Of a stretch of 31,750 nucleotides of DNA, positions 11,743-31,750 are shown in pieces; position 1 is the stretch's first letter, and the number at the start of each line of letters is the position of its first letter. The stretch covers positions 1-31,750 of the IMG/VR virus record IMGVR_UViG_3300025030_000321; one strand, given 5' to 3'. Origin of the DNA: a virus. The notes below the pieces were generated by a model. The model made no database searches. It saw only the letters and a program-made list of their open reading frames with translations, and was not told the DNA's origin. The position numbers and the translations under genes were made by a program.

Positions 11743-11766
11743 CTTATCAGGTATAGAGAGGATTAT

Positions 11767-12051: not shown

Positions 12052-12063
12052 AAAAGGAGAATT

Positions 12064-12279
12064 ATGGAAAAAATAAGTCACAGGGAAAAATTAAGAATAG
12101 CAAGAAGAAATATGTCTAAAGAGGAACGGAAGAAAAATAATCATGTTTCGCCTTTTCAAAGTAAGGCGTGGGAGTTTAGAAAACAGGGAATTAAGAATAG
12201 AGTTAATAAAACAATCAAGCGTCAACAGGAGGTCGCCAAAAAGAAAAGTCTAGCCTCCCTAAAAGATATAAAAAGGTAA
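12064..12279 (+). CDS. Small basic protein (71 aa)
   Basis: ATG with AAAAGGAGA upstream. The product is very basic, with Lys and Arg in over a third of positions (EKLRIARRNMSKEERKKNNH, KNRVNKTIKRQQEVAKKK). It is probably a disordered or helical nucleic-acid-binding protein. No family is recognised. It could compact or protect DNA or act on RNA; this follows only from its charge. Confidence 0.5.
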   Translation: MEKISHREKLRIARRNMSKEERKKNNHVSPFQSKAWEFRKQGIKNRVNKTIKRQQEVAKKKSLASLKDIKR

Positions 12280-12323
12280 ATAGAAGAATATGATTTATCA
12301 ACCCTTAACCCAAAAGGAGAAGA

Positions 12324-15498: not shown

Positions 15499-17481
15499 AT
15501 GGCAAAATTAAAAGACCAAGACCTTCTGACAGAGATGAGCCAGCAGTATGACTTGTCTAAACGTTACCTCGACCCCGTACATGACAGAATGAACTCACAG
15601 GAGGAACTCTACCGGTGTTTCATAGACTCACAGAACTATCCCCACTCAGCTAAAGTATTTGATCCACGCATATTCAGAGTAATTGAAACCATAACCCCGA
15701 GAATGGTAGCCAACGAACCCACAGGGAGCTTCTATCCCACAGAGGAAGGGGATGTGGCTACCAACCAGATACTCAATGCGCTTATTAAATACGACTGGCG
15801 AAGGGCAGTGATGTTTCCCAAGCTAGTCATGTTCGTTAAAAGTATGCTTTTATTCGGGACGGCCTTCGGAAGAACCTATTGGGACTTTCGTGAGTGTGAG
15901 AAGACGAGAATGGAGCCCAAAACTATCAACGGTAAGACAGTCTGGACACCTAAATCTACTAAAAAGTTCACCTACACAGAGTATGACGGGCCTAACTTCG
16001 AGATATTAAACATCTACGACTGCTTCCCCGATCCCAATGCTACGAGTTTAGACAACATGAGGTGGTTTATATACAGGACTTTCAAGACTTTAGACGAGAT
16101 GGAGAAGGAAAATGATGCCAGAGGAGGAGAATATTGGAAGAACCTGTCAGAGTTAAGGGCTGCGGTTAAAGACAGTAAGGACAAAGATAAACAAAAGAGA
16201 GGCGCACAGCCCCAAGATATCAACTACAGAGAACACAGAAGGGTCATGTTATCCACTCAAGAGCTTCATGGAGAGGATATCAGTAACCCTGAGTTTGTTG
16301 TCCTTATAAGATATGAGAAAGACAGATGGGTTTTTAGTGTACCTGAATATGGAATAGTCATAAGAGATGTTGAGAACCCTTACTTTCACGGCCAACTGCC
16401 AATAGTGTACGGAGTTGACTATCCTTATCCCGGTGAACTCTATGGCATGGGTGAGATTGAACCGATTGACCGTATTCAAAGAGCCATCAACGCCGTATTG
16501 AACCAGAGATTGGATAACGTGCAATTGGTTTTAAGGAATATGTGGAAGGTCAAGAAGAACTCAGGGGTTGACCTTCATACTCTTGTCTCCGCTCCGGGAA
16601 ACATAGTCACAACTGACGATATGGAAGCGGTAGATACAATAAACGTTCCCGATGTCACTGGGGGGACTTTCGTCCAGACAATGAACTACCTTACCGCAGC
16701 CATGCAGAACGGCTCAGGGATAACAGACTATACGATGGGAATCAACACAGGAGCCAACACAGCTAATGAAACCGCAACCGGAACCAGACTTATTCAACAG
16801 GAAGCAAACGCACAATTCAAATTAAAGATACAGCTCTTTAACGCTATGGTTATTGAGAGAATAGCTAACCAGTGGAAAGACCTAAGGATTCAATACACCA
16901 CTGAAAAACAGAAAGTAAGGATTATCGGCAGAAACGAAGTCAAATACATGAGGGACAAAACAGAGCTGGGAAGAACAGATATGATGGGTGAGCCTATCAT
17001 GCCGGGAGACCTTGAGACACAGGCCAAGATGGTTGTAGGAGAGGATGATAACTTTGCCTTCCTCACTCTCTTGCCTGAAGACATCCAACCTTCTGTGGTA
17101 GGGGACTATGACTTTATCGCAGCTCCCTCTAGCGAACAGTTAAGCGACCCCATAGCCATGCAGGAGAACTTCTTTATAGCTCTTGAGAAAGTATCTAACC
17201 CCGCTTGGGTACAGGGATTGGCTTCATCAGGTAAGAAACTAAACTATGCCGAAATGACTGAAAAGGTATTCGAGAAACTCAACTTAGGTATTGAACTCAA
17301 TGACGTATTGGAAGATTTGCAACCCGCCCAACCCGGAATGGGTGTAGATATGGGCGGGGAAATGTTAGGAGGTGAAGTCGGTGGATTTGACGAAGGAGCA
17401 GCAGGAGGCATACCAGCAGTCCCTTCAGCGGGGATCGGACTACCAGGTAATGGTCAGGGGCCGGGGATGGGAATGGGTTAA
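15499..17481 (+). CDS. Portal protein
   Basis: 660 aa from ATG 15499, placed right after the hairpin and T run; in-frame TTG 15454 and ATG 15469 lie in the hairpin leader and are less likely. The sequence shows a typical portal order: an early SQQYDLSKRYLDPVHDRMNS helix, FVKSMLLFGTAFGRTYWD, then PYFHGQLPIVYGVDYPYPGE and the DRIQRAINAVLNQRLDN helix. The dodecameric portal forms the DNA gate of the head. The C-terminus is Gly/Met-rich and its last 100 bases also encode the start of the next gene in another frame. Confidence 0.85.
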   Translation: MAKLKDQDLLTEMSQQYDLSKRYLDPVHDRMNSQEELYRCFIDSQNYPHSAKVFDPRIFRVIETITPRMVANEPTGSFYPTEEGDVATNQILNALIKYDWRRAVMFPKLVMFVKSMLLFGTAFGRTYWDFRECEKTRMEPKTINGKTVWTPKSTKKFTYTEYDGPNFEILNIYDCFPDPNATSLDNMRWFIYRTFKTLDEMEKENDARGGEYWKNLSELRAAVKDSKDKDKQKRGAQPQDINYREHRRVMLSTQELHGEDISNPEFVVLIRYEKDRWVFSVPEYGIVIRDVENPYFHGQLPIVYGVDYPYPGELYGMGEIEPIDRIQRAINAVLNQRLDNVQLVLRNMWKVKKNSGVDLHTLVSAPGNIVTTDDMEAVDTINVPDVTGGTFVQTMNYLTAAMQNGSGITDYTMGINTGANTANETATGTRLIQQEANAQFKLKIQLFNAMVIERIANQWKDLRIQYTTEKQKVRIIGRNEVKYMRDKTELGRTDMMGEPIMPGDLETQAKMVVGEDDNFAFLTLLPEDIQPSVVGDYDFIAAPSSEQLSDPIAMQENFFIALEKVSNPAWVQGLASSGKKLNYAEMTEKVFEKLNLGIELNDVLEDLQPAQPGMGVDMGGEMLGGEVGGFDEGAAGGIPAVPSAGIGLPGNGQGPGMGMG

Positions 17482-18843: not shown

Positions 18844-19560
18844 ATGGAGTAATTTATATATGAATCTCCTCTGAATAACGGGAAACTCCAGAACGGACAA
18901 CCCGATGGAAGAGGAACTTGCACATTAACATTTAGCATGATAGAATAGTTGCGTATGGAAGCAACTAGGATAGCTTATTTATCAGGATTATTTGACGGAG
19001 AAGGATATATTCGAGTGAATAAATCGCAATCGAAGAAATCACTTAAATCTATGCAACGTATTACTCCTGATTTTGATCTTACTGTTGGAATAACAAATTC
19101 TGTTTTAGAAGTAGTAGAACCATTCAAGGAAAATTGGGGCGGTTACATATACGCTAATAAAAGAGATAACAGAAAAATAATATTTCAATGGATTAGATAT
19201 GGTCAAAAGGCGGAAGAAATGATTAGATTATTCCAGCCATATTTAATTATAAAACAGAAAAAAGCTATTCTTGCTCTTGAATATCAAGAATACTATAACT
19301 CTACAAAGTCTCGTGGTAAGACAAAAGCACCAGAGATAGTTAAAAAATTAGATGAGTATTATTGGAAATTTAGAGAGCTAAATGCTAAAGGTAGTCAATG
19401 GCTTGTTTCTCACCAGCAGAGACTAAGTGAGGAGCTTCAATCTGTAGAAAGAAAATATAAAATCTACAAATTGAATGAAGCGATAGTCCGAACTACACGG
19501 GAACGTGTAGAGGCTAGCAGAAATGCCTAGCCCTAGTAACAAAATTGTCACAAACAGTTG
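18844..19560 (+). mobile_element. Group I intron in the capsid gene
   Basis: About 717 bases between two in-frame capsid exons; exon 1 ends in U and the intron in G as group I introns do. Core elements: P/Q-like region with CGGGAAAC (18879-18886) and GACAACCCG (18896-18904); P7 from GACTA (19421-19425) with TAGTC (19484-19488); a P8-like arm between them, GCTTCAAT against ATTGAA plus an inner TGTAGA/TCTACA; P9-like stems CTACAC/GTGTAG (19493-19510) and GGCTAG/CTAGCC (19512-19532). A P1 candidate pairs CATATAT (18839-18845) with ATATATG (18856-18862), though the usual U-G pair is not obvious. The exact boundaries are provisional. Confidence 0.75.
18955..19530 (+). CDS. LAGLIDADG homing endonuclease (intron-encoded)
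   Basis: 191 aa from ATG 18955. LSGLFDGEGYI at residues 9-19 is a LAGLIDADG-type motif with the acidic metal ligand. Then come basic DNA-contact strands (VNKSQSKKSLKSM) and YLIIKQKKAILALEYQEYY, typical of single-motif family members that act as dimers. Known enzymes cut intronless alleles and spread the intron. Base use is AT-richer than nearby capsid exons, suggesting separate ancestry. Its 3' part also encodes the intron's P7 to P9. The start codon lies in the loop of hairpin TAGTTGC/GCAACTA (18946-18967), which should limit translation from unspliced or precursor RNA. Confidence 0.8.
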   Translation: MEATRIAYLSGLFDGEGYIRVNKSQSKKSLKSMQRITPDFDLTVGITNSVLEVVEPFKENWGGYIYANKRDNRKIIFQWIRYGQKAEEMIRLFQPYLIIKQKKAILALEYQEYYNSTKSRGKTKAPEIVKKLDEYYWKFRELNAKGSQWLVSHQQRLSEELQSVERKYKIYKLNEAIVRTTRERVEASRNA

Positions 19561-20430
19561 GGTCAGTTGAACAGGAAAGTTGCATCAGGTGAAGGCGGAT
19601 ATGGCTCACAAGTCCTTTACTGGACGAAATGGGTCAATCTGGACAATATCACTTCAGGAACAGGAGAGGGAGTACCAACAACCACGGTAGCCTTTTCTGC
19701 AATGAATGTGACAGGTTCTACCGCACAGTATGACAACGCAGTCGGTATATCTGACATTCTGGCTTATGCCTCAATGGGAGATATCATGAAGGCAGCGATA
19801 GAGAGGCTTGCATACAATGCAGGCGTTTCTATTGATACACTCGTCAGGAATGTTATCGCAACAGCGATGACGCAACAGAGCGCTTCCGCCACAGCCTACT
19901 GGTCAGCCGTTCCAGCCGGAGCTAACTTAATAATTAGCGAGGTCAGGAAAGCTGCCAGAACGCTTCAGAGGAATGACGCCTTCCAACAGGAAGACGGTAA
20001 CTGGGTAGCGGTAGCACATCCTGATTCAATCTACGATTTGACGGGAGATGCCTCAACAGGAGGCTGGATAGATGCCAACAAATACACCGAGGGTAATGCT
20101 ACGAAACTTATGACCGGTGAAGTCGGGAAACTGTATGGAGTTCGCTTCTTACAGTCTTCCAACGGCTACACAAGGGGAAGTTCGTACGCAACTACGTCGG
20201 CGGTTGTTGCTTCAACCACGATCTATGTCACATCCGTGTTTGGTAAGGATGCGTTCGGCGTTTCCGAACTCCAGAATCTTAAGACTTATATCAAGCCTTT
20301 CGGTTCCGGTGGAGTCGGAGACCCGACAGACAAAATTGCAACGGCAGGATGGAAAACTTTGTTTGGCACTAACGTGCTGAATTCTGCTTTCGCCGTAAAC
20401 ATTAATCACACAGTCAGTTCAACTGCCTAA
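19561..20430 (+). CDS. Major capsid protein, exon 2 (N4-gp56 family)
   Basis: 289 codons to TAA at 20428. The segment NAVGISDILAYASMGDIMK, then LAYNAGVSIDTLVRNVIATA and WVAVAHPDSIYDLTGD, matches the HK97-fold capsid proteins called N4-gp56 family. A Gly/Thr-rich loop and VYVTSVFGKDAFGVSEL-like strand near the C-terminus fit the A-domain. Frame-open sequence also starts at TTG 19558 but has no SD, which supports splicing rather than an independent start. The complete capsid protein forms the icosahedral shell. Downstream is a terminator-like hairpin. Confidence 0.85.
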   Translation, partial: GQLNRKVASGEGGYGSQVLYWTKWVNLDNITSGTGEGVPTTTVAFSAMNVTGSTAQYDNAVGISDILAYASMGDIMKAAIERLAYNAGVSIDTLVRNVIATAMTQQSASATAYWSAVPAGANLIISEVRKAARTLQRNDAFQQEDGNWVAVAHPDSIYDLTGDASTGGWIDANKYTEGNATKLMTGEVGKLYGVRFLQSSNGYTRGSSYATTSAVVASTTIYVTSVFGKDAFGVSELQNLKTYIKPFGSGGVGDPTDKIATAGWKTLFGTNVLNSAFAVNINHTVSSTA

Positions 20431-20478: not shown

Positions 20479-20544
20479 TTGACTTGATGTGATATATTGA
20501 TACAGTTAATCCCGCAAGGGCAGACCCCACAAGGGTCTTTTTTT
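20479..20544 (+). promoter_or_regulatory. TTGACTTGAT promoter and double-hairpin leader
   Basis: TTGACT at 20479-20484, 16-bp spacer, TACAGT at 20501-20506. The leader holds CCC-GCAA-GGG (20511-20520) and then AGACCC 20522-20527 / GGGTCT 20533-20538 followed by T at 20538-20544 and ATG 20545. There is no SD between hairpin and start codon. Confidence 0.6.
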
Positions 20545-20865
20545 ATGGGCAAATGGATTTATTATAGTCCTAACCAGTACAAATACGTCAGTGATGATGA
20601 CCCACGCCCCGAAATCAAACTCAAAACCCGTGAAATAGGAGATACTTATGTTAAGTTCGTTCCTTCATGGAAGAAATACGAGCCTGACATATTAAATGTT
20701 GACAGGAAAGAAGACTTCAAAAGAAATGATGCTTTCCTTGCAGAAAGGGAACACGAAATCAAGACCGACCCCAAAGCAAGACGGTGGGAGGAGTCACGTA
20801 AGCAGGAGTGGGCCAGAAACAAGCCAGCATGGAGAAAACAGATGATGAGGGAGGGCTTAATATGA
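20545..20865 (+). CDS. Hypothetical 106-aa protein after the capsid gene
   Basis: ATG 20545 directly follows the hairpin and T run; an in-frame upstream ATG at 20497 lies in the promoter. The product has an aromatic N-terminus (MGKWIYYSPNQYKYVSDDD) and a highly charged helical C-terminus rich in Arg, Glu and Trp (RRWEESRKQEWARNKPAWRK). No family is recognised. Position after the capsid and before glycan genes suggests a small virion or head protein. It is linked by ATGA to the glycosyltransferase gene. Confidence 0.55.
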   Translation: MGKWIYYSPNQYKYVSDDDPRPEIKLKTREIGDTYVKFVPSWKKYEPDILNVDRKEDFKRNDAFLAEREHEIKTDPKARRWEESRKQEWARNKPAWRKQMMREGLI

Positions 20866-22298
20866 TTTCGATAGTAATGTCGAGTTATAACAGGCCTAAA
20901 AAGCTGAAAAGGGCCATAGATTCTGTTATAAATCAGACTTTTACCGATTGGGAGCTTGTCATAGTGGATGATAACTCAAAAGAAGACACTCAAGCTGTTG
21001 CAGAGGCATTCAAAGACCCCAGAATACGCTACATAAAGCGCAAGAAGAACTTCGGTAATGATACAAGGCCTAAAAATGAGGGTATATTAGCCTCAAAGGG
21101 CGAATTTATATGTTTCTTAGACGATGATAACGAATATAGACCAGATCACCTTGCTATTTTACTCAAAGAGATTCAAAAAGACGATAAACTGGATGTAGTT
21201 TACGGCGATAGATGGATAATTTCAGATAAAGACAATCCTCACCCAATCAAAGACCAGCCGGGATTCATGTCAGACTTCGATCCGGCACTTCTGATGGAGA
21301 GAAACTTCATAGACTCATCAGACATCATAGTTAAACGTCAGGCTCTATTCGACATAGGAGGGTTCGATGAGAGGTACAAGAAGTATATTGATTGGAATGT
21401 ATATATCAGGTTGACCAAGTACGGCAAGAAGTTCAAGAGAGTGCCTATGTTCATAACCAACTACCATATACACGGGGACATGAAGTCCATAAGAGTCAAG
21501 ACTAAAGGCGACAGCCAGACAGCTTTCGTTCCTGAATGGGACCCTTACAACCTTGAGATTGAGCTTCCCTATTTAAACACGTCAGCCAGAACCCAGCCGA
21601 GAGTGGCGGTATTTAGTATAACTTATGATCGGCTGGGATATACAAAGAAATCCTTTAAAAGTCTGCATGATACTGCTGGATATCCTTATGATCATTTTAT
21701 TATTGATAATGGATCGACTGATGGAACTTTTGAATACTTACAGGAGAGAATGAAAAATATCCAATGGGGATATTTTAATAAAAAGAATGTAGGAATTTCT
21801 AAAGCCTCTAATCAGGCCATAGATTTAATTAAAAGCTCGATTCCTAAGTATGACATCATAATTAAATGGGATAATGACTGTTTTGGACTCACTCCAGGTT
21901 GGCTTGCTAAGATGGTTGAGATATGGAAATGTCACCACATGCTAGCCATGTCCTGTTACGTTCAGGGTTTAGTCGATAATCCCGGCGGTTCACCACGAAT
22001 GGGCTATGGAACTATAAAAGGTGAACTTATAGGCATGACCCAGCACTTAGGAGGGATATGTCACTTCGTAGACGCCCACGCTTACGACAAATTCAGGTGG
22101 GATGATAATTCATTCTTACACGGAGTACAGGATATGGAGATGTCCCAGTTCTTAAAGTTCAATGGGTATATGCTTTGCTACTTAGAAAATTACTTCGTAT
22201 CTCATGGCCCGGGTACTGACCAACAGAAAAAAGACTTTCCTTCTTACTTTGAAAGACGCAAGTTAGACAAGCAAACTCGCTATGCAGAGAACAAATAA
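20862..22298 (+). CDS. Bidomain GT2 glycosyltransferase
   Basis: 478 aa from ATG 20862 in an ATGA overlap; in-frame GTG 20808 lies inside the previous gene and is rejected. Domain 1 (1-240) has the GT-A start ISIVMSSYNRP, VDDNS at 35-39 and the metal-binding FLDDDN at 85-90. Domain 2 (from about 245) starts anew with VAVFSITYDRLGYTKKS, IIDNGSTDGT and a KWDNDC metal site. Two GT2 modules in one chain suggest a polymerising or two-step glycosyltransferase using nucleotide sugars, in the cytoplasm. No membrane helix is present. The glycan is unknown. Confidence 0.8.
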   Translation: MISIVMSSYNRPKKLKRAIDSVINQTFTDWELVIVDDNSKEDTQAVAEAFKDPRIRYIKRKKNFGNDTRPKNEGILASKGEFICFLDDDNEYRPDHLAILLKEIQKDDKLDVVYGDRWIISDKDNPHPIKDQPGFMSDFDPALLMERNFIDSSDIIVKRQALFDIGGFDERYKKYIDWNVYIRLTKYGKKFKRVPMFITNYHIHGDMKSIRVKTKGDSQTAFVPEWDPYNLEIELPYLNTSARTQPRVAVFSITYDRLGYTKKSFKSLHDTAGYPYDHFIIDNGSTDGTFEYLQERMKNIQWGYFNKKNVGISKASNQAIDLIKSSIPKYDIIIKWDNDCFGLTPGWLAKMVEIWKCHHMLAMSCYVQGLVDNPGGSPRMGYGTIKGELIGMTQHLGGICHFVDAHAYDKFRWDDNSFLHGVQDMEMSQFLKFNGYMLCYLENYFVSHGPGTDQQKKDFPSYFERRKLDKQTRYAENK

Positions 22299-22875
22299 TC
22301 CTCAGACGAATACTAGAATTTATTGGAACTATATCTATACTACTCCGGCTAAAGCTAAAGATTATTGGAGCAAGACACACCGCTTCCCCTTAGCTGTAAC
22401 TTACGTCAAAGACGGAGATAAGTTCATAGATTTAGGTTGCGGGGTGGGGATACCTGGACGGACGATAAAGAAAGAACGCAAGGGTTGTGAGATATGGGGA
22501 GTCGATATTTCAGATGAGGTAATTGAGAACAATAAGAAAGACGACCCGGATATCCATTATTTTCAGGGGTATATAGGTAATTTAGGTTTCCTTCCGATCA
22601 ATCACTTTGATGTAGTCTTTTGCGGTGAGACTATAGAGCATTTAGACACTCCTTCAGATTTATTTGAGGAAGCCTTTTCTATTCTTAAACCCGGAGGGAA
22701 ACTAATAATAACAACTCCTCTTAAAGACCATATAAATTCTCCCGAGCATATGTGGATTTATACAAAGGAAGACGTGGAGAAACTATACAGGGATGCAGGG
22801 TTTTCAAAAGTTGAGTTTAAGGACTTACCTGATACCGAGCATTTAGTAATTATTTTTGCAGTTGGTACAAAATGA
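22282..22875 (+). CDS. Class I SAM-dependent methyltransferase
   Basis: 197 aa, overlapping the GT2 gene by 17 bases. Motif I is FIDLGCGVGIPG (about residue 48-59), motif II has IWGVDIS, motif IV is DVVFCGETIEHL, and the post-motif strand is LKPGGKLIITTPL. This matches the Methyltransf_11 type, which often methylates sugars or small metabolites. The N-terminal 40 residues (IYWNYIYTTPAKAKDYW) resemble glycan-cluster methyltransferases. With its GT and deacetylase neighbours, a sugar O-methyltransferase is most likely, but the substrate cannot be proved. Confidence 0.8.
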   Translation: MQRTNNPQTNTRIYWNYIYTTPAKAKDYWSKTHRFPLAVTYVKDGDKFIDLGCGVGIPGRTIKKERKGCEIWGVDISDEVIENNKKDDPDIHYFQGYIGNLGFLPINHFDVVFCGETIEHLDTPSDLFEEAFSILKPGGKLIITTPLKDHINSPEHMWIYTKEDVEKLYRDAGFSKVEFKDLPDTEHLVIIFAVGTK

Positions 22876-23498
22876 AGACAATATCACTTGATCTGGATGA
22901 TTTCAGTATTTTGAACAACCGCATGGACTTGCTTATGCAATTAAAAGAGTCCTATCCCAAACTAAAAGTCTCACTCTTTACCATCCCCTATGACTTTGCT
23001 TATGAAACACTGCCGGAAGGACAAATACTAAGGGATAAGACCCTCGCCATGATTAAAACCCAACTGGACTGGATAGAACTCATACCTCATGGACTGGTTC
23101 ACTTTCCCAAAGAGTTCGAGAAGTGTGACTACAAGACCATGAAGCTAAAAGTATTCCCGGCCATAGAGGAAGCGTTTAAGAAGGACTGCCTGCCTTACGT
23201 TAAAGGTTTCAAAGCTCCTTACTGGTTGTGGAATGAGGAAGTAGTCAGAGCTTTAGACGAGGAGGGCTGGTGGGGAGCGATAGATAAAGGCGCACAACTT
23301 AAGACTAAGAAATACTTTGAATACACTCATGGAATAGATGAGATTTTTTGGGAGAGTACATTCGACACTCTTAAATTACACGGACATATAACCAACGATA
23401 ACAATAACGCTATTGCCAAATGTTTTACTAATTTATTCAAAATGCCTACAGATGCGGAGTTTCGCTTCGCTTCTGAACTTTTAAATGAGACCAATTAG
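22872..23498 (+). CDS. CE4-like polysaccharide deacetylase, paralog 1
   Basis: 208 aa, ATGA-coupled. CE4/NodB-like motifs are visible: LDLDDFS (Asp9-Asp10, motif 1), IPHGLVH with His73 and His77 (motif 2), a KAPYWLW strand as motif 3, GWWGAID, and LHGH at 169-172 (motif 5). These enzymes use a metal to remove N- or O-acetyl groups from glycans. No signal peptide is present, so it would act on a cytoplasmic intermediate. It is shorter than usual and somewhat divergent. It has a second copy at 28462. Confidence 0.65.
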   Translation: MKTISLDLDDFSILNNRMDLLMQLKESYPKLKVSLFTIPYDFAYETLPEGQILRDKTLAMIKTQLDWIELIPHGLVHFPKEFEKCDYKTMKLKVFPAIEEAFKKDCLPYVKGFKAPYWLWNEEVVRALDEEGWWGAIDKGAQLKTKKYFEYTHGIDEIFWESTFDTLKLHGHITNDNNNAIAKCFTNLFKMPTDAEFRFASELLNETN

Positions 23499-24543
23499 AA
23501 TATGCGCCTACGGAAATCCGTCCGGAAGTAAATTCTGGCGTCTCATTGATCCTTTAAAGTATCTTCGCAAGAAAGGCTTTGATGCGTATGTATCAGATAA
23601 CGGAATAAACGAGTTAGAAGCTGACTGGGCTGATATTATAATCGTCCAAAGCTGTACCGATAAGAAAGGATTAGCTCTTTTATACCAATTCCAGCAGGAG
23701 AAGGAAAAAAAGATCGTAGTTGAGGTTGATGATTTTCTGGAATTGAACGAGGACTCGCCTTTCAAACATGCACATAATGTCTTTGAGGCACAGTTTGTCA
23801 TCTCACGCACAATGCAGGTAGCTGATGCGGTAACAACGACTACCGACTTTTTAGCTTTACAACTGGCAAGGTACAACAAAAATGTAAAGGTGCTTCCTAA
23901 CTATATAGATGAGGACAGATGGAATCTTCCTAACCTTCCAAATACGACCGATAGAATTAGAATAGGCTGGGCGGGATCAATAACCCATGTAGAAGACGTA
24001 AGGATGATTGAGCGGCCTATACGTCTTATTTGTAAAGAGTTTCCCCAAGTCCAGTTAATTATCGTAGGTGATCCCAGAGTTGCGGAGATATTCAAAGGAC
24101 TTCCGGTAGACAACCAGCTAGGCGTTCCCTTTGAGGCTTGGCCTTCCAAGTTACGTTCTTTAAGGTTAGATATAGGTTTGGCTCCGCTTCGTAAAACTCT
24201 ATTCAACCAATGCAAATCTAATATTAAATGGATTGAGTATTCAATAGCAGGAATCCCCGGAGTTTATTCTCCTACGATTTACAACGATATTGGGACAAAG
24301 CATTTTGACGGCATTTACGGGATGATAGCGGAGAATCAGGAGCAGTGGTACAGGTGTATCAAGAATTACATAATATCCCCGGAGTTAAGAGAAGATATAG
24401 CAGGAAGGGCTTTATCTTGTGTAACTACAGGCTACACTCTCAAAACAGGGATCAAGAAGTGGGTAAAGTTTTATAGGCAGTTGATTTCAAAGGAAAATAG
24501 TGATATAAAAAGTGAGTTACCGGCGCAAGCCGCAAACACCTGA
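23485..24543 (+). CDS. GT-B fold glycosyltransferase (GT4-like)
   Basis: 352 aa; ATG overlaps the deacetylase end by 14 bases. The N-terminal Rossmann half includes CAYGNPSGSKFWRLIDPLKY and ends with VKVLPNYIDEDRW, a hallmark of GT4 linkers. The C-terminal half begins IRIGWAGSITHVEDV and has QLIIVGDP, the typical donor-site LRLDIGLAPLRKTLFNQ, and SNIKWIEYSIAGIPGV. It probably transfers a sugar from a nucleotide donor to a lipid or glycan acceptor in the cytoplasm. There is no membrane helix. Confidence 0.8.
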   Translation: MRPIRICAYGNPSGSKFWRLIDPLKYLRKKGFDAYVSDNGINELEADWADIIIVQSCTDKKGLALLYQFQQEKEKKIVVEVDDFLELNEDSPFKHAHNVFEAQFVISRTMQVADAVTTTTDFLALQLARYNKNVKVLPNYIDEDRWNLPNLPNTTDRIRIGWAGSITHVEDVRMIERPIRLICKEFPQVQLIIVGDPRVAEIFKGLPVDNQLGVPFEAWPSKLRSLRLDIGLAPLRKTLFNQCKSNIKWIEYSIAGIPGVYSPTIYNDIGTKHFDGIYGMIAENQEQWYRCIKNYIISPELREDIAGRALSCVTTGYTLKTGIKKWVKFYRQLISKENSDIKSELPAQAANT

Positions 24544-24557
24544 AAGGGTGTTTTTTT
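24481..24557 (+). promoter_or_regulatory. Promoter and double-hairpin leader without SD
   Basis: TTGATT 24481-24486, 17-bp spacer, TATAAA 24504-24509, extended by TG (24501-24502). The leader contains CGGC-GCAA-GCCG (24521-24532) then AACACC 24535-24540 / GGTGTT 24547-24552, T at 24551-24557 and ATG 24558. The layout repeats that of 20479-20544. Confidence 0.6.
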
Positions 24558-25079
24558 ATGGAAGATAACGTAACATTTAGAGAAGCCCCGGTTCCTACTA
24601 TAGAGCAACCAAAGGTTGATATTCCCGAACCTGTAAAAGACAACACTGCTACAGAAACAGGGGAAAGCGACAGGGAACCTATAGAACTTCGGGACACCAA
24701 CGGCAGAAGCGTGGTACTGGACGCTCTTGGTATATCAGAGAACACAAACTCCCTCCCCGCAGAGGATAAGGCCAACTTAAATGAAGTCAAAGACTATGTT
24801 TTAAGTATAGTCAAAGCCAAAGGTCTTTCACCAACAGTATCAGCTTTCACTAAAACACTTAATAGTTTAAAGGGTGAGATGGGGCTTAATGAGGAGTCGG
24901 AACCTTCAATCGTACTTGATAGGATAGCCGGAGTAGTCAAGGCATGGCGCAACCTCTCTTTTATCAAAGACCCAGCCGAAAAGAAAAAGATATTTTATAA
25001 GTTAGCACGCCTTAATTCTTCAATAGAGATGAACAAGGAAGTATTCAAGTTGATGGAGGATCACCAGATATGGCAGTAG
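24558..25079 (+). CDS. Hypothetical virion-associated protein (173 aa)
   Basis: ATG immediately follows the hairpin/T run. Residues 1-45 are Pro/Glu/Thr-rich and probably disordered; the rest is a compact helical domain (VVLDALGISENTNSLP, then VKDYVLSIVKAKGLSPTVSA and VLDRIAGVVKAWRNLSF). I do not know the family. It has its own promoter and a YD-like protein next to it, unlike the glycan enzymes around it, so it may be a head or tail structural component. It overlaps the next gene by 10 bases. Confidence 0.6.
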   Translation: MEDNVTFREAPVPTIEQPKVDIPEPVKDNTATETGESDREPIELRDTNGRSVVLDALGISENTNSLPAEDKANLNEVKDYVLSIVKAKGLSPTVSAFTKTLNSLKGEMGLNEESEPSIVLDRIAGVVKAWRNLSFIKDPAEKKKIFYKLARLNSSIEMNKEVFKLMEDHQIWQ

Positions 25080-25366
25080 CAAATCCAACTCACAGAAAAC
25101 TGACAAAAACACTCCAGTACATGGAGAATATGAGCTTTGATCCCGACCATGAGGTTCTAACCCGTATTCCTCTGACATTGAACCCGGTATCAGGAGCTTT
25201 AGAGCGTCCTACCGCTATTCAGGGTAACCAGTCAATGGCTTTGACTTATGACGGGAGTGGTAATTTAACCCAACTGGATAAGACGATAGGAGCTGTAACT
25301 TACAGGAAAACCTTTACATGGGATACGGGTAGATTAACTGCAATCTCAACTTGGTCTCAAGTATGA
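25070..25366 (+). CDS. Small protein with YD/RHS-like repeat
   Basis: 98 aa. The C-terminal half has YDGSGNLTQLDKTIGAV and FTWDTGRLTAIS, a pattern like one RHS/YD repeat and also like short phage virion proteins. The N-terminal half (LTKTLQYMENMSFDPDHEV) has no recognised domain. Its partner gene upstream is likely structural. A tail or baseplate accessory role is possible. It ends in an ATGA overlap with the UDP-sugar dehydrogenase gene. Confidence 0.55.
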   Translation: MAVANPTHRKLTKTLQYMENMSFDPDHEVLTRIPLTLNPVSGALERPTAIQGNQSMALTYDGSGNLTQLDKTIGAVTYRKTFTWDTGRLTAISTWSQV

Positions 25367-26124
25367 AAGTTGCTGTAATTGGTACAGGATGGGTGGGTAA
25401 AGCCATGCATCAGCTTTTTCCTGATGCCTACCTCTACTCATCGAGTACAGGCTACAAAGAGGATGTCAATAAATGTGATGTAGCTTTTGTTTGTGTACCG
25501 ACTCCCAGCATAGATGAGGGAAAACTTGATATCTCTATTGTTGAAGATGTAGTTTCCTGGTGTGAGTGTTCTCTTATTGTTATCCGCTCAACAGTCAATC
25601 CCAGTACAACAGACTATCTTAAAAAGAAATACAAGAAAAGAATAGTACATCAGCCGGAATATTTGGGTGAGACTCCCCAACATCCCATGCTTGATCCCAA
25701 GACTAGGCCATTCTTAATTATTGGCGGTGATCCTGACGACAGGAGACAGCTTATTGAGTTGTACCAGACAGTTTACAACGCCAACATTACGATCAGACAG
25801 GTCACGGCATATGAGTCAGAACTAATCAAACTGACTGAAAATAGAGCTATTGCGTTCAAAGTAGCTCAATGTCAGGAACTCTACGATGCCTGTAAAACGG
25901 CTGGAATTGACTATTACACTATTAGAGATGCCGTGTACGGAGATGACCCCCGGTTCAACCTTTGGTGGACTTTCGTGTTTGAAAGTAATCGAGGTTTTAA
26001 TTCTAAATGCTTACCAAAGGATGTTTATGCTTGGGCAGCTTGGTCAGAATCAGTTGGATATAATCCTAAGATTACAAAAGCTATTCTATCAAAAAATCAG
26101 GAGTGGATTAATGAAAAAGATTAA
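25363..26124 (+). CDS. Shortened UDP-glucose/GDP-mannose dehydrogenase-like enzyme
   Basis: 253 aa from ATG 25363 (ATGA overlap; TTG 25351 rejected). The NAD-binding domain has VIGTGWVGKAM at 5-15 and FVCVPTP. The region VIRSTVNPST and HQPEYLGE is typical of the family. Middle-domain helices include Lys156 in ELIKLTEN, and the catalytic Cys216 in GFNSKCLPKD. These are the active-site residues of nucleotide-sugar 6-dehydrogenases, which oxidise UDP-glucose to UDP-glucuronate. It stops just after the Cys region and lacks the usual C-terminal UDP-binding domain of about 150 residues. It could work with a changed sugar-nucleotide or be inactive. Confidence 0.7.
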   Translation: MKVAVIGTGWVGKAMHQLFPDAYLYSSSTGYKEDVNKCDVAFVCVPTPSIDEGKLDISIVEDVVSWCECSLIVIRSTVNPSTTDYLKKKYKKRIVHQPEYLGETPQHPMLDPKTRPFLIIGGDPDDRRQLIELYQTVYNANITIRQVTAYESELIKLTENRAIAFKVAQCQELYDACKTAGIDYYTIRDAVYGDDPRFNLWWTFVFESNRGFNSKCLPKDVYAWAAWSESVGYNPKITKAILSKNQEWINEKD

Positions 26125-26557
26125 ATTAACACAAGGAAAGTTTGCTTTGGTAGATGATGGAGATTATCAATGGTTGAATCAATGGAAGTGGCATTATTCG
26201 GGTGGTAGAGCAGTAAGAATAATCTGGATAGGTAAAGGTCATAAGAATAGAAAAGCTAATACGATATTAATGCATCGTTTAATAAATAAAACACCACATA
26301 ATTTTGATACAGATCATATAGACAGAAATCCTCTAAACAATCAGAAAAATAATTTAAGAACTTTAACGCATAGTCAAAATCTACATAATAGGCCAAAACA
26401 AAAAAACAATAGATCTGGATTCAAGGATATTTTTTTTGATAAACAAACTGGTAAATGGAGAGTGCAGATATGTATTAATGGTAAGAAAATTTCTTTTGGT
26501 AGATTTACTGATATTAAATTGGCAGTTATTCAAAGAAATAAAAAATGGTTAAGTTAA
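26111..26557 (+). CDS. HNH endonuclease with AP2-type DNA-binding domain
   Basis: 148 aa from ATG 26111, chosen because it precedes the family N-terminus (MKKIKLTQGKFALVDDGDY). HNH core: MHRLI then TDHIDRNPLNNQKNNLR (Asp68, His69, Asn81). The C-terminal AP2-like domain spans about 100-140 (SGFKDIFFDKQTGKWRVQI, then SFGRFT). Such enzymes are free-standing homing endonucleases. The AT-rich base use differs from neighbours. It overlaps the dehydrogenase stop by 14 bases and the next GT start by 13, so insertion did not obviously break either gene. Confidence 0.8.
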   Translation: MKKIKLTQGKFALVDDGDYQWLNQWKWHYSGGRAVRIIWIGKGHKNRKANTILMHRLINKTPHNFDTDHIDRNPLNNQKNNLRTLTHSQNLHNRPKQKNNRSGFKDIFFDKQTGKWRVQICINGKKISFGRFTDIKLAVIQRNKKWLS

Positions 26558-27339
26558 GTTGTATTCTCCCTTCTTACAAAGACCCTCTTTTAATAAAGAC
26601 AATAGATAACCTTCTACTTAACTCCGAGTTAGGAGATCAGCTAGAAATAATAGCTGTATTTGATGGGTACTGGCCCACATTCGAGTTAAGGGGCGATCCA
26701 AGAGTTGAATACATACACTTGGGAAAGAATGCAGGGATGAGGGGGGCGATCAATGCAGGAGTAAACGCTTCTCAAGGTGAGTTTATCTTGCGGACCGATG
26801 AGCATTGTATGTTCGGTAAGGGTTATGACCGGATTCTTACTTCTACCTGTCGTCCTGACTGGATTGTCACCGCTACAAGATACTTTCTGGACCCTGTTAA
26901 GTGGGAAAGAATGGATATCCCCCCGGTCAATTACGAAAAATTAGTCATTCAAGAGGGAAAGAAGTTTGCCGGAGTCAGGTGGAAGGAGAGAGACGAATCA
27001 AACAAACACAAGATAATAGACCAAACTATGGCTATGCAAGGCTCTATGTGGGTTATGAGTCGTAAGTGGTGGGATGAAGTTATAGGTGAGTTACAAACTG
27101 AAGGTTACGGCCCTTCCTATCAGGACAGCCACGAGATGATATTCAAGACCTGGAAAGCAGGAGGAAAGATGGTATTAAATAAGAATACATGGTTTGCGCA
27201 TAAGCATAGGTCATTCCCCAGAACCCATCAGGAAGGCTCACCTGAGAACCCCTCTAAACGTGAAGATAGTTGGGCTTATGCCTTGAAAGTGTGGAGGGAT
27301 TACTACGAAAAGGAAGTGAGGCCTAAGTGGGGAATATGA
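26545..27339 (+). CDS. GT2 glycosyltransferase
   Basis: 264 aa, starting 13 bases inside the HNH gene. GT-A motifs: LSCILPSYKDPLLI at the N-terminus, IAVFDGYW, then GKNAGMRGAINAGV and the metal-binding RTDEH in GEFILRTDEHCMF. Later, WFAHKHRSFP resembles the acceptor-side motif in GalNAc-transferase-like GT2 enzymes. It likely adds a sugar to a glycan or to a protein in the cytoplasm. Its stop overlaps the next start by ATGA. Confidence 0.75.
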   Translation: MVKLSCILPSYKDPLLIKTIDNLLLNSELGDQLEIIAVFDGYWPTFELRGDPRVEYIHLGKNAGMRGAINAGVNASQGEFILRTDEHCMFGKGYDRILTSTCRPDWIVTATRYFLDPVKWERMDIPPVNYEKLVIQEGKKFAGVRWKERDESNKHKIIDQTMAMQGSMWVMSRKWWDEVIGELQTEGYGPSYQDSHEMIFKTWKAGGKMVLNKNTWFAHKHRSFPRTHQEGSPENPSKREDSWAYALKVWRDYYEKEVRPKWGI

Positions 27340-27806
27340 TTTTACACGTTGGTTGTGCCAATCGTTACTATGAAGGGTTTGTAAACTCCGACAAGGTTGA
27401 AGTCTGGAAGGGAAAGAAAAGGAAACTGGATTTAGTCATGGATTTAGGCAAGTCCTGGCCTTATAAAGATGAAAGTGTGGATGGGATAGTAGGGATGCAC
27501 GTATTCCAGCAACTCACATGGAGGGAGCTAATCGTAGCTTTCAGCGAGGCTAAAAGGGTGCTTAAAAAGGGCGGAGTGTTAAGAATGGGTTGTCCTATGA
27601 TCGAGATAGATAAGCCTCTGGAATATTTATTGGGATGGAGAAATATCAATTTGTTCAGTTTAGACCTTCTTAAACAGGTTTTGGTTGACCGGATAGGTTT
27701 CAGACGGTTCAGGGAGAGGGGATATAAAAGATCATGGTTGCCTATTCTTACTATCGCAGATAACCGTCAGCATAGAGGAACATTATATATGGATGTAGTC
27801 AAATGA
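27336..27806 (+). CDS. Methyltransferase-like protein (short class I)
   Basis: 156 aa from ATG 27336 in an ATGA overlap; GTG 27327 rejected. The start LHVGCANRYYEGFVNSD, then DLGKSWPYKDESVDGIVG and LKKGGVLRMGCP, follows class I SAM-methyltransferase order, but motif I (HVGCA) lacks the usual second Gly. The family includes many small predicted SAM-binding proteins in glycan clusters. Activity is uncertain. It is coupled to both neighbours, so it likely shares the same pathway. Confidence 0.65.
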   Translation: MILHVGCANRYYEGFVNSDKVEVWKGKKRKLDLVMDLGKSWPYKDESVDGIVGMHVFQQLTWRELIVAFSEAKRVLKKGGVLRMGCPMIEIDKPLEYLLGWRNINLFSLDLLKQVLVDRIGFRRFRERGYKRSWLPILTIADNRQHRGTLYMDVVK

Positions 27807-28465
27807 CCGATATTACGATTATCTTTCTTACGGTCAACAGAGTCCCTGAGAAATGGGCCGAGTATCAAAAGGAAGTCCTACTTGAAGCTATTGGGGATAC
27901 TCCGGTCATTACCATCTCTAAAATACCTTTAGACTGGGGGACTAACCTGATTCAAGAAGAAGAACCCAGTATGCAGAATATCTACAGACAGATATTAAGG
28001 GGAGCTAAACTCGCCACTACTCCATATATAGCAATCGCTGAGGACGACTGCTTATACCAGAGGGAACACTTCGAGTTTAGGCCTCCTCTTGATACCTATG
28101 CCTACGATTACCACAGGTGGGGGCTTATGACTTGGCCCGTATCCGACAGACAGTCGTTTTATTATAACGACAGGTTTTCCAACTCAACTCTAATTGCTCC
28201 TAGAGAACTTGCTATTTCATCATTAGAAGAAAGATTCCTTAAGTATCCTGACAACAGAATAGGAGAATTAGGAAGGGAGATCGGTACGATACTCGATAGG
28301 AAGAATGTTATCCGTTATTGTCCACAGTCTTCCAACGTATTTTTAAGCCATGTAAATGCCATAGACCCTTACGAACAGAAGATGAAAAAAAGGAGGGGAT
28401 TTGTCCGGGCTTACGAGATACCCCACTGGGGAAGGCCGGAGGACATTCTTAAACATTTCATATGA
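27803..28465 (+). CDS. GT-like protein, paralog A
   Basis: 220 aa, ATGA-coupled both ends. It starts DITIIFLTVNRVPEKW, and the central IAEDDCLYQREHF looks like a GT-A metal site (AE-x-D-x-LY). The same signature is present in two other genes of the cluster (29959 and 31228), making a paralogous group. The C-terminal EIPHWGRPEDIL also recurs in paralog B as KLPYWGDVRELR. Likely a glycosyltransferase of a minor group; no donor or acceptor can be named. Confidence 0.6.
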   Translation: MTDITIIFLTVNRVPEKWAEYQKEVLLEAIGDTPVITISKIPLDWGTNLIQEEEPSMQNIYRQILRGAKLATTPYIAIAEDDCLYQREHFEFRPPLDTYAYDYHRWGLMTWPVSDRQSFYYNDRFSNSTLIAPRELAISSLEERFLKYPDNRIGELGREIGTILDRKNVIRYCPQSSNVFLSHVNAIDPYEQKMKKRRGFVRAYEIPHWGRPEDILKHFI

Positions 28466-29073
28466 GAGTAACACTTGATCTTCACGACTTTTCGGTGGTC
28501 AACAATAGATTACTCTGGCTGTTGGGACTAAAACAGCACTTCACTAATTTCAAAGTATCATTATTTACTGTTCCTTTCGACAAGAAAGAAGATTGGGGAC
28601 CATCACTTATTGGGGATGACTTTTTGATTGAAATTAAAAAAAACCTTGATTGGATTCAGTTAATACCTCATGGCTTATACCATAACGGATCAGAGATGAG
28701 TAATTGTGACTACCCGACTTTCAAAGAGAAGATCATGCCTGAAATTACAGACGCTTTTGATTCCAAAGGGCTTCCCTATGTTAAGGGATTCTGCGCTCCA
28801 CATTGGAGATGGACAGATGGAGTAGTGAAGGCTCTTGACGAAGCTGGGTGGTGGGGGGCTGTAGATCGGGACAAGCAAATGCCCTATACAAAAAGGTACT
28901 ACAGATACAACTTCCTCTTAAACGAACCGTTCTGGGAGTCTAAAGAGGATTTAAAACTTCACGGTCACATCTATGGGACTAAGAACGACATAGGGAGATG
29001 CTTTGACAACTTATTAAAATTACCTAAAGATACAGAGTGGGTGTTTGCATCAGACTGCCTTGAAAGCCTTTAA
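28462..29073 (+). CDS. CE4-like polysaccharide deacetylase, paralog 2
   Basis: 203 aa, ATGA-coupled to paralog A. It shares the whole plan of the deacetylase at 22872: LIPHGLYH (His70, His74), VKGFCAPHWRW, DEAGWWGAVD and LKLHGHI. Motif 1 is LDLHDFS: the Asp that usually acts as base is His8 here, while metal-ligand Asp9 remains. Deacetylation is likely but may be altered. No signal peptide. The repeat of GT2, methyltransferase and deacetylase order suggests a duplicated block. Confidence 0.65.
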   Translation: MRVTLDLHDFSVVNNRLLWLLGLKQHFTNFKVSLFTVPFDKKEDWGPSLIGDDFLIEIKKNLDWIQLIPHGLYHNGSEMSNCDYPTFKEKIMPEITDAFDSKGLPYVKGFCAPHWRWTDGVVKALDEAGWWGAVDRDKQMPYTKRYYRYNFLLNEPFWESKEDLKLHGHIYGTKNDIGRCFDNLLKLPKDTEWVFASDCLESL

Positions 29074-29101
29074 TATTTACCAGCATCTAGAAGGGACGGA
29101 A

Positions 29102-29971
29102 ATGACCGACAGGGACAAAAAGGAGATCGGCAGTAAGTTCTGGAACAAGGGGAAGTGGGATAACTTTGTCCTTCCGTTTCTAAAAGAGAGAGGGACGTTT
29201 GTAGATATGGGGTGTAATGCGGGGTTGTTTCTTTTGTTTGCCCAGCAGGAAGGATTCGATAGGATTATAGGTGTTGATTCAGATGAGGGAGCGGTTAAAC
29301 GTGGTTTAGAGTGGCGGGACAGTCATGGAGGCAAGTACGACATCGTCTTAAAGAGGATGGAGGAGTGTATAGACGACCTTCCCGTAGCAGACTACACTGT
29401 TTTTGCCAACGCACACTACTACTTCACTATAAACGACTGGCTGGACTATTTAGACAAGCTCCAATACAAAACCCGTTATTGCATTATAGTTACAGCCGAG
29501 AAAAGACACGGTAACAGATGCTGGGCACAGGCCCACGTCCCAGATATACGAAATTACTTTAAGACTTGGAAAGAAGAAGGTTTTATTGACGAGCTACCAT
29601 TAGAAGGCGACCCCATGCCCCGAAGGCTGTGGGGACTTCTCTTTAAAAGCCCACATCTTGAGAAAGTCCCTATCGGTAGTTTGGACTGTGGAAACCACGT
29701 ACAAGACCAGTTTTACGCAGAGATAGATAAAGGCGTCCCTTATCAAAAGACAAGATACTACAGAATACTCAAACCCTATCGCAAGAAGTGGAGTGAGGAC
29801 AGGCTGAACAAATGGGTTGAGGAACGTATCAGAGTATATCAGGATTTAAAGAAGAACGGATTAAAAAAGCCTTTAATTATCAATTCAAGTAATCTCATCC
29901 TTGACGGAAACCATAGATACTCAATGATGAAACATTTAGGTTATAAGGAGGTAATAGTACGCAGGACTTAA
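29102..29971 (+). CDS. Methyltransferase fused to ParB/Srx-like domain
   Basis: 289 aa from ATG 29102 with GGGACGGAA upstream; an in-frame TTG at 29045 overlaps the previous gene and is less likely. Residues 15-150 form a class I methyltransferase: FVDMGCNAGLFL at 33-44, IIGVDSD and ADYTVFANAHYYF. Residues 190-289 form a second part ending LIINSSNLILDGNHRYSMM; DGNHR at 268-272 is the signature of ParB/sulfiredoxin-like domains, known as CTPases, kinases or nucleases. The fusion is unusual. It may couple sugar methylation to a nucleotide-dependent step. The function of the C-terminal part is inferred. Confidence 0.7.
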   Translation: MTDRDKKEIGSKFWNKGKWDNFVLPFLKERGTFVDMGCNAGLFLLFAQQEGFDRIIGVDSDEGAVKRGLEWRDSHGGKYDIVLKRMEECIDDLPVADYTVFANAHYYFTINDWLDYLDKLQYKTRYCIIVTAEKRHGNRCWAQAHVPDIRNYFKTWKEEGFIDELPLEGDPMPRRLWGLLFKSPHLEKVPIGSLDCGNHVQDQFYAEIDKGVPYQKTRYYRILKPYRKKWSEDRLNKWVEERIRVYQDLKKNGLKKPLIINSSNLILDGNHRYSMMKHLGYKEVIVRRT

Positions 29972-30603
29972 CCGTCATCTATATTTCATCAAACAGGGAA
30001 AAGCCTGAATTTGAGGCTAAAATAACGGTTGATTTAGTTAAAAAGTCTCAAGGGCTTCCCATTATCAGCGTTACCCAGAAACCGATGGATTTAGGACAAA
30101 ATATCTGCGTGGGAGATGTGGGAGCTTCTGGGTATAACTTTTTACGCCAAGTCCAGATAGCTTGCCAGAACGCCTTGACTCCTTTTGTCATTCACGCTGA
30201 AAGTGACTGTCTTTATCCCCCGGACTACTTCACGTTTACCCCGCCCAAATTGGATATCCCTTACAGGAACACAAATATCTACGTCCAGAAGTATAGGAAG
30301 GACTATTTTTGCAAGAAGAACAATTCAACTTTCTCTCAAATAGTAGGGAAAGACTTTTATCTTAAAAGGTTACATGAGTTATTCGGATATCAGCCGATAT
30401 GGAATATACAATATAAGAACTTCCCCAAAGAAATCAAAAAGAACCTTTTTGACAAGTTTGAATACTTTAATACCAAAAACTCCTGTATCTCATTCAAGAC
30501 AGGACAGGGAATGAGAAAGCACAGTAATTGCGATGAAATCCCCGTTTATAAGTTGCCGTACTGGGGGGATGTGCGGGAGTTGAGGAGAAATTATGAAGAT
30601 TAG
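29959..30603 (+). CDS. GT-like protein, paralog B, with probable ACG start
   Basis: 214 aa from ACG at 29959. No ATG, GTG or TTG lies between the upstream in-frame stop and Met43, and AAGGAGG (29945-29951) sits exactly seven bases before the ACG. The product aligns from there with paralog A: (M)QDLTVIYISSNREKPEF against MTDITIIFLTVNRVPEKW. Starting at ATG 30085 would remove the first strands. The metal motif is HAESDCLYPPDYF. Translation from ACG should be weak, or this could be a point change or sequencing error. The coding region otherwise is intact. Confidence 0.65.
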   Translation, partial: TQDLTVIYISSNREKPEFEAKITVDLVKKSQGLPIISVTQKPMDLGQNICVGDVGASGYNFLRQVQIACQNALTPFVIHAESDCLYPPDYFTFTPPKLDIPYRNTNIYVQKYRKDYFCKKNNSTFSQIVGKDFYLKRLHELFGYQPIWNIQYKNFPKEIKKNLFDKFEYFNTKNSCISFKTGQGMRKHSNCDEIPVYKLPYWGDVRELRRNYED

Positions 30604-31231
30604 TGAAGGATTGAAACTAAAGGGGCGTCCGGCTGAAATCCCTGATTGCGGAAGGAATGACCTTCCCGGGTTTTTCAAGGAGATGGGCTTTAAGAGAGGT
30701 ATAGAGGTTGGTGTGTTTCAGGGTGAATATACCGAAGTCTTAGCAAAGTCAGAACTTGAGATATACGGAATAGACCCCTGGTTGCAATATGAAGGGTATG
30801 TCTATAGTACCGGAAAGACAAAGGTGTATTTTAACGAAATGTACGAAAAGGCTAAAGAAAGATTGTCTCCATATAATAACGTCAAGTTAATAAGGAAAAT
30901 GTCTATGGACGCCTTAAAGGACTTCAAAGATGAAAGCCTTGATTTTGTTTATATAGACGCAAACCATACTTTCAAGTATATAGCCGAGGATATGTATTAC
31001 TGGAGTTATAAGATAAAAGACGGAGGGATATTATGCGGCCACGACTACGCTTATTTCAGACACAGATATATAGGCGGTGGCTGTCAGGTCAAGGAGATTG
31101 TCAATGCTTTTTCCTTTTCTTATGATCTTGATTTCTGGGTATTGGGCAGGAACAAAAAGATAAAAGGAGAGATAAGGGATGACTACCGGAGCTGGATGTT
31201 TATTAAGGATAAGAATTGGATACCCAAGTGA
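30593..31231 (+). CDS. Class I SAM methyltransferase (Methyltransf_24-like)
   Basis: 212 aa, overlapping paralog B by 11 bases. GIEVGVFQGEYTEVLAKS is motif I, ELEIYGIDPW motif II, then DESLDFVYIDANHTFKY and a GGILCGHDY strand, as in TylF/CmcI-type or Methyltransf_24 enzymes that methylate sugars and other small molecules. No membrane segment. A role in decorating the glycan made by this cluster is inferred from context. GTGA couples it to the next gene. Confidence 0.75.
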   Translation: MKISEGLKLKGRPAEIPDCGRNDLPGFFKEMGFKRGIEVGVFQGEYTEVLAKSELEIYGIDPWLQYEGYVYSTGKTKVYFNEMYEKAKERLSPYNNVKLIRKMSMDALKDFKDESLDFVYIDANHTFKYIAEDMYYWSYKIKDGGILCGHDYAYFRHRYIGGGCQVKEIVNAFSFSYDLDFWVLGRNKKIKGEIRDDYRSWMFIKDKNWIPK

Positions 31232-31750
31232 CCAAAGGGATACTTTATTACACCAACAACAGATTAGACGACAGGATATTCAAGGTAGTCCAGAAGCAAC
31301 TATTGACGATTGGACTGCCCATAGTCAGCGTGTCTTTGAAGCCGATAGATTTCGGCCAGAATATAGTAATGGACCTTCCGACAGGACTCGTAACTTTGAC
31401 AAAGCAGATTCTAAAAGGTCTGGAAACTATTACGACTGATGTGGTGTTTTTTGCCGAGTGTGATGTTTTATACAACCAGTCACACTTTAAGATAGAACTC
31501 GGAAAGAAAGACGCCTTTTATTACAACAATAATATCCTGCGGTGGGACTATCCAAAAGACAGGTTTGTATCCTTTAAAGCCCAAGTTGCGTTATTGGGTA
31601 TGTGCGCCTACAGGACTTTATTGCTTAGCCATTACACCCAAAAACTTAAATACATAACTGATAAGGGATTTGATAATAGGGATGGGGATTCGGGATGGAT
31701 GAGGTATATAGGCCATGAGCCGGGAAAGAGTGTAAAAGCGGGCGGCTTAT
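31228..31750 (+). CDS. GT-like protein, paralog C (3'-partial)
   Basis: GTG at 31228 overlaps the previous stop (GTGA), and the frame is open to the window end (174 codons). It starts TKGILYYTNNRLDDRIF and carries FAECDVLYNQSHF, the same AE-x-D-x-LY signature as paralogs A and B. LPIVSVSLKPIDFGQNIV also matches LPIISVTQKPMDLGQNIC in paralog B. It is likely a glycosyltransferase-like member of the cluster. Its C-terminus is outside the window. Confidence 0.6.
   Translation, partial: MTKGILYYTNNRLDDRIFKVVQKQLLTIGLPIVSVSLKPIDFGQNIVMDLPTGLVTLTKQILKGLETITTDVVFFAECDVLYNQSHFKIELGKKDAFYYNNNILRWDYPKDRFVSFKAQVALLGMCAYRTLLLSHYTQKLKYITDKGFDNRDGDSGWMRYIGHEPGKSVKAGGL

Follow-up and report, generated by a model that had tools for sequence, protein, structure and literature searches.

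We analysed a 31,750-base linear IMG/VR contig from an uncultured tailed phage (IMGVR_UViG_3300025030_000321; the whole stretch is hereinafter called the window) and the large cluster of predicted glycan genes at its right end. The window joins two predicted phage glycan modules of different ancestry, designated modules A and B. Module B travels together with proteins that carry long S-P-S-x repeat arrays (SPSx), and this association is new here. Because module B nearly always co-occurs with SPSx genes and usually adjoins them, it likely sugar-coats the repeats on the virion. Specifically, module B probably, though far from certainly, glycosylates the serines of S-P-S-x arrays in virion proteins, including fibres, nozzle-like proteins, and head-adjacent proteins. 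The reading draws on gene families, protein folds, the independence of the two modules, the co-occurrence and adjacency of module B and SPSx genes, and the strict conservation of serine in the arrays.

Thirteen glycan-type open reading frames (ORFs), all on the + strand like every strong gene of the window, occupy 20862-31750, where the contig stops; the first lies just past the major head gene. They encode GT2A, MT1, CE4a, GT4, a UDP-sugar dehydrogenase, GT2B, MT2, GTL1, CE4b, MT3ParB, GTL2, MT4, and GTL3; the run is broken by two small ORFs and an HNH gene. An SU10-like portal gene and the major head gene (19558-20430) lie immediately upstream. A sequence-only reading of this DNA had assigned a GT2 glycosyltransferase, a methyltransferase, and a CE4-like protein to 20862-23498, a GT2 glycosyltransferase, a methyltransferase, a glycosyltransferase-like protein, and a CE4-like protein to 26545-29073, and about 13 glycan genes in all to the region adjoining the head genes, with added UDP-sugar dehydrogenase, GT4, glycosyltransferase-like, and methyltransferase genes. 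Family matches bear out the gene types of both series, with two GT2 domains in the first GT2 protein, and the additional genes, which comprise a GT4-like gene, the UDP-sugar dehydrogenase, more methyltransferases, and another two glycosyltransferase-like genes; structure models and Foldseek support the CE4 and GT-A folds, and the count of 13 ORFs agrees. That reading had not included the paralogy of the three glycosyltransferase-like genes, the ParB-like domain on the methyltransferase at 29045, or the HNH gene at 26123.

Relatives were collected by CE4-guided searches (41 viral loci and two bacterial loci), and their gene order divides cleanly into the two modules. Module A has the order portal-scaffold-MCP (major capsid protein)-ORF-GT2A-MT1-CE4a-GT4-24558-like. 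Module B has the order GT2B-MT2-GTL1-CE4b-MT3ParB-GTL2-MT4-GTL3, sometimes with a dehydrogenase and an HNH gene, followed by GT2B'. Module A alone is present in 14 podovirus-like contigs, and module B is present in other phages and in a Patescibacteria chromosome. Both modules occur in one contig in the window, in the 44.6-kb relative G001, and in G004. Whole-contig searches found no MT3ParB in A-phages with this portal, and neither a full-strength GT2A-type match nor a portal in B-phages. CE4a, GTL1, GT2B, MT3ParB, and the portal have no match among 50,697 INPHARED phage records, and the lineage is therefore uncultured, with no characterised relative.

Three tests link module B to the SPSx arrays, although they are only partly independent, as the DNA-pattern test includes several contigs from the MT3ParB test. 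Long S-P-S-x arrays are present in proteins of module-B contigs, and none was found in complete A-only contigs. Among distinct contigs found via MT3ParB alone, without reference to SPSx, 25/27 contain SPSx genes, compared with 0/14 A-only contigs (Fisher p=3e-9), and the SPSx gene lies within ~105 bp of module B in 18 of the 25. Conversely, among contigs found via an SPSx-type DNA pattern, the GTL family, counted anywhere on the contig, is present in 11/19, compared with 0/31 for contigs that carry TP[ST]x arrays (p=2e-6). Co-occurrence of glycosyltransferase genes with a candidate virion acceptor is thus a property of the module family, seen in its contigs and not directly in the window. In the 448 SPSx units of module-B contigs, all 896 of 896 hydroxyl positions are serine, with 0 threonine, and all six serine codons are used. 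TPx arrays are mostly threonine, and many viral contigs (L098-L177), some of them >100 kb, lack the GTL family but encode long arrays of T-P-T-x or T-P-S-x units. A literature search on SPS-type repeats in phages returned no matching paper.

The gene order of G001 indicates how the cluster proceeds beyond the window, namely GTL3-GT2B'-SPSx proteins-tail genes, in line with the earlier expectation that it extends past the edge. Because GT2B' and SPSx genes follow GTL3 in G001 and the window ends in GTL3, we predict that this phage also has SPSx genes, just beyond 31750. A near-identical sister contig (L003) also ends within GTL3, and an exact search for the last bases of the window found no contig with their continuation.

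The nozzle-like virion protein of G001 (phrog_3287, beside an SU10-type adaptor) has 774 aa and contains a clean ~125-residue SPSx insertion, while the corresponding protein of eight A-only relatives has 637-655 aa and no insert; SPSx is likewise missing from the majority of 62 additional nozzle loci. In L229 (35-5034), the SPSx array is the point at which the nozzle-like gene breaks into two ORFs, with a lectin-like domain and a beta-helix-like ORF lying between them, and a 98% identical contig, L236, supports the split. This arrangement suggests that SPSx arrays are ports for swapping adhesion domains. Further SPSx arrays connect with domains of LamG-like and Gly-rich type.

In the proposed mechanism, GT2B, GTL1-3, and GT2B' would act in the cytoplasm as the virion assembles, initiating a short glycan on serine and lengthening it. 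The CE4-like protein would deacylate a sugar, the methyltransferases would cap sugars, and the short dehydrogenase would oxidise a sugar or a sugar nucleotide. The outcome would be stiff, protease-resistant glycosylated stalks bearing adhesion domains.

Several points weigh against glycosylation of SPSx serines by module B. The Fisher p-values are optimistic because related contigs are not independent events, and many contigs are fragments. The window contains no SPSx array, and some module-B relatives are without SPSx, namely L301, L317, L033/L047 (fragments), and a Zambryskibacteria metagenome-assembled genome (MAG). The L229 split means that SPSx could be a linker or a recombination hub. 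Deacetylase activity of the CE4-like family is uncertain, because most CE4b and several CE4a proteins have His where the catalytic base is expected. Finally, glycosylation by module B, the order of its enzymes, and the identity of the sugars are all predictions from sequence.

Besides a virion coat glycan, which gains support for the second block from the linked SPSx-repeat virion proteins, the sequence-only reading had offered remodelling of the host surface, for which we found no specific support. Under this alternative, modules A and B would build or alter a host glycan, lipid-linked or in the cell wall, and so block superinfection or change the receptor, and the SPSx proteins would be mere nearby linkers. 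Sets of GT2, CE4, methyltransferase, and sugar-dehydrogenase genes do resemble surface-polysaccharide loci, the top CE4 fold match is ArnD, a lipid-linked sugar deformylase, and module B lies next to TatC on a Patescibacteria chromosome. However, no flippase, polymerase, undecaprenyl-phosphate sugar transferase, or membrane-anchored glycosyltransferase was recognised in the window cluster, which lies among late structural genes. Host-surface remodelling also leaves the tight SPSx association and the serine-only conservation unexplained, and we regard it as unlikely.

Equally improbable, in our judgement, is that SPSx arrays are unmodified flexible stalks and recombination sites for adhesion-domain swaps, with the module B glycan destined for another virion part such as a head protein. 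The insertion of a lectin-like domain and a beta-helix-like ORF at the split array of L229, the linkage of arrays to LamG and Gly-rich domains, and the placement of module B after the head genes in several B-phages all favour it. It does not explain the adjacency of module B, nor the absence of threonine from 896 positions although phages without the GTL family do have TP[ST]x arrays.

There is only a slim chance that the SPSx serines carry some other modification or a mixture, such as a phospho-sugar or phosphate. Nucleotide-using serine kinases occur within the ParB/Srx superfamily, and a ParB-like domain with a conserved DGNHR motif is fused to a methyltransferase and forms a conserved part of the module, so the ParB/sulfiredoxin-like domain of MT3ParB might add a kinase-type step; however, no protein-kinase family was found, and module B also encodes several GT-A-type proteins.

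A recent tandem duplication of the GT2-MT-CE4 block within this phage, suggested by the recurring gene order and the paralogous CE4 genes, is rejected as highly improbable, since the three gene pairs are not all paralogous and the CE4 pair is not sister in the tree. CE4a and CE4b, at 51% identity, are the sole clear paralogue pair of the two blocks; GT2A and GT2B share ~25% identity over the GT2 core, and pairwise comparison of MT1 and MT2 gave no significant similarity. In a tree of 31 CE4-like proteins, a branch supported at 99/95 separates 16 A-type from 14 B-type members, so that CE4a and CE4b fall in separate branches shared with other phages. This paralogue comparison, which the sequence-only reading had proposed as a check, contradicts its description of the two series as one repeated block. 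With the CE4 tree split and the modules found separately in different phages, the two blocks are independent acquisitions by the refuting condition that the sequence-only reading had itself set.

Module A is anchored by the major head protein (19558-20430; phrog_1357, E=9e-34); this gene and all genes detailed below from here to the contig end are on the + strand. A small, fast-evolving ORF (20497-20865), placed by synteny, lies between the MCP and GT2A genes in most module-A phages. GT2A (20862-22298) is a tandem two-domain GT2 glycosyltransferase (PF00535, E=7e-45, two stretches) that looks cytosolic and is present in every A-phage tested. It is followed by MT1 (22282-22875), a class-I S-adenosylmethionine methyltransferase (PF13489, E=3e-19), by CE4a (22872-23498), and by GT4 (23485-24543), a GT-B type glycosyltransferase that matches phrog_7162 (glycosyltransferase, E=2e-39) and, weakly, PF13524. 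The ORF at 24558-25079 has no match in Pfam or PHROG and is conserved by synteny downstream of module A in most A-phages. No S/T/P-rich acceptor candidate is common to the A-only phages. Module A probably forms a glycan module of its own for the virion of this podovirus lineage, with perhaps a capsid protein as its acceptor. The sole S/T/P-rich stretch of its kind seen in the window, 40 aa with 70% S/T/P and not of SPSx type, is in the protein encoded at 4472-5539.

Three genes separate this region from module B. A small ORF (25070-25366) has a weak RHS/YD-like match (PF05593, E=0.008). The next gene (25351-26124) encodes a short UDP-glucose/GDP-mannose dehydrogenase-like protein of 257 aa (PF03721, 3e-14; PF00984, 2.5e-13; phrog_9148, 8e-30). 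Its three-domain architecture is incomplete: only the N-terminal and central domains are matched, and the UDP-binding C-terminal domain has no hit. Similarly short forms, of 239-270 aa, are encoded by several relatives. The third gene (26123-26557; phrog_99, E=2e-30) is a homing-type, HNH endonuclease-like insertion inside the glycan cluster. A LAGLIDADG homing-type endonuclease is encoded at 18949-19530, beside the capsid gene.

Module B opens with GT2B (26545-27339), a single-domain GT2 glycosyltransferase (PF00535, E=2e-9) whose position is supported by synteny in module-B contigs, followed by the methyltransferase MT2 (27327-27806; PF08241, E=2e-7). GTL1 (27803-28465) belongs to no Pfam or PHROG family and is predicted to be a GT-A-fold glycosyltransferase-like protein with a conserved E-x-D motif (AlphaFold pLDDT 88; Foldseek to WrtF/SpsA/PmHS2, E~1e-6). 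CE4b (28462-29073) precedes MT3ParB (29045-29971), a methyltransferase (PF13489, E=8e-6) fused to a ParB/sulfiredoxin-like domain (ParB PHROGs, residues 263-306). GTL2 (29959-30603), a second GT-A-like paralogue recognised by its reading frame and alignment, has no ATG, GTG, or TTG start; its probable start is an ACG at 29959, 7 nt after AAGGAGG (29945-29951). In the sister contig L003, two Ns stand right after this ACG, so that a sequencing error and a non-canonical start are both possible. The module continues with MT4 (30593-31231), a PF13578-type methyltransferase (E=4e-13), and GTL3 (31228-31750), a third GT-A-like paralogue that the contig end truncates.

GTL1, GTL2, and GTL3 are distant paralogues with 21-26% identity. 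Foldseek relates the family to GT-A folds with E values of 4e-7 to WrtF and 1e-6 to SpsA, at a TM score of only ~0.5. E80-x-D82 is invariant across 37 GTL sequences and presumably represents the DxD-like metal/nucleotide motif. Searching PDB sequences with profiles of the CE4 and GTL families gave nothing useful.

The CE4-like proteins of the window, CE4a and CE4b, form a sequence family unrecognised by Pfam and PHROGs. The CE4a model (pLDDT 96.8) supports a CE4/DUF2334-like deformed barrel fold, with Foldseek matches to CE4 esterases and ArnD whose E values range from 1e-4 to 3e-7, ArnD (8t0j) being at 3e-7. Among the 31 members, the metal triad D10/H73/H77 is kept in all but one, which is truncated at D10; DUF2334 matches 13, and Polysacc_deac_1 weakly matches 2. 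At the catalytic-base position, residue 9, the CE4a group (n=15) has Asp in 10 and His in 5, and the other 15 members have His in 11 and Asp in 4.

Module B, in one case as a variant, is also present in two Patescibacteria MAGs. In a Yanofskybacteria MAG (L050), it comes after the genes for TatC and for a cement-like protein (PF09956, E=4e-4); the contig then ends inside an SPSx gene. The next contig (L290) begins in SPSx and continues into TypA/BipA and ribosomal L27 and L9 genes, and this copy therefore looks chromosomal. In the Zambryskibacteria MAG (L049), a module-B variant lies beside TatC, with no SPSx by pattern; this contig encodes MT3ParB fused to a second methyltransferase-like domain (11411-12871) and a GT2B'-GTL3 fusion (15699-17387). 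The sharing of module B with these MAGs suggests that Patescibacteria may be the phage hosts. A paper on Patescibacteriota phages reports glycan auxiliary metabolic genes but, in the passages searched, neither SPSx nor virion glycosylation. A wider picture, which we offer tentatively as slightly less than an even prospect, is that module B is a mobile, dedicated serine-glycosylation cassette, found across varied uncultured phages as well as on one or more Patescibacteria chromosomes, with S-P-S-x arrays as a transplantable glycomodule, SPSx inserts in virion proteins as glycosylated stalks and ports for adhesion-domain swaps, and a coat that may mimic a host SPSx surface glycoprotein.

The closest phage precedent is virion glycosylation in mycobacteriophages, where phage glycosyltransferases are reported to act on the capsid and tail tube (Freeman et al. 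2023, Cell Host Microbe; cited in PMC12619734, PMC10877033, and PMC11256854). According to the summary in PMC12619734, the sites there are the C-termini of capsid and tail-tube subunits, whereas the candidate here is an SPSx array. Both systems would use phage-encoded glycosyltransferases for virion proteins, ours as a prediction, and the module described here is larger, with GT-A-like paralogues, CE4-like proteins, and methyltransferases. In bacterial serine-rich repeat protein (SRRP) systems, the glycosyltransferase genes cluster with the substrate gene. Module B would resemble SRRP and Ser-Asp repeat systems (SdgA/SdgB, PMC3794999) in dedicating a glycosyltransferase set to long Ser-rich repeats of adhesive surface proteins, but it differs from them in its S-P-S-x tetrapeptide, its phage virion proteins, and its unrelated glycosyltransferase families. 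GtfA/GtfB-type glycosyltransferases and SecA2/SecY2 accessory Sec genes are absent from the window glycan genes, which places the cluster outside the SRRP/accessory-Sec group. CE4a and CE4b share the fold and metal-ligand pattern of CE4, DUF2334, and ArnD-type carbohydrate deacetylases but, unlike them, escape Pfam and PHROG recognition and have Asp or His at the catalytic-base position. Chloroviruses synthesise hyaluronan with a virus-encoded processive GT2 together with a UDP-glucose dehydrogenase. In contrast, GT2A looks cytosolic, the dehydrogenase is without a C-terminal domain, and there is no sign of an exported polymer. Virus-encoded glycosyltransferases that hypermodify DNA (Pyle et al. 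2024, cited in PMC12619734) also act on a phage component. Unlike them, module B is associated with repeat proteins; the genes examined include no recognisable pathway for modified bases, and nothing found supports DNA glucosylation.

If correct, glycosylation of SPSx arrays by module B would be a genetically encoded phage protein O-glycosylation with a predictable short acceptor repeat, useful for glycoengineering. It would account for the long, low-complexity SPSx proteins of environmental viromes, and would tie phages to the genome of an uncultured Patescibacteria bacterium. Because close relatives differ in whether they have the module and the insert, the purpose of virion glycans would become testable.

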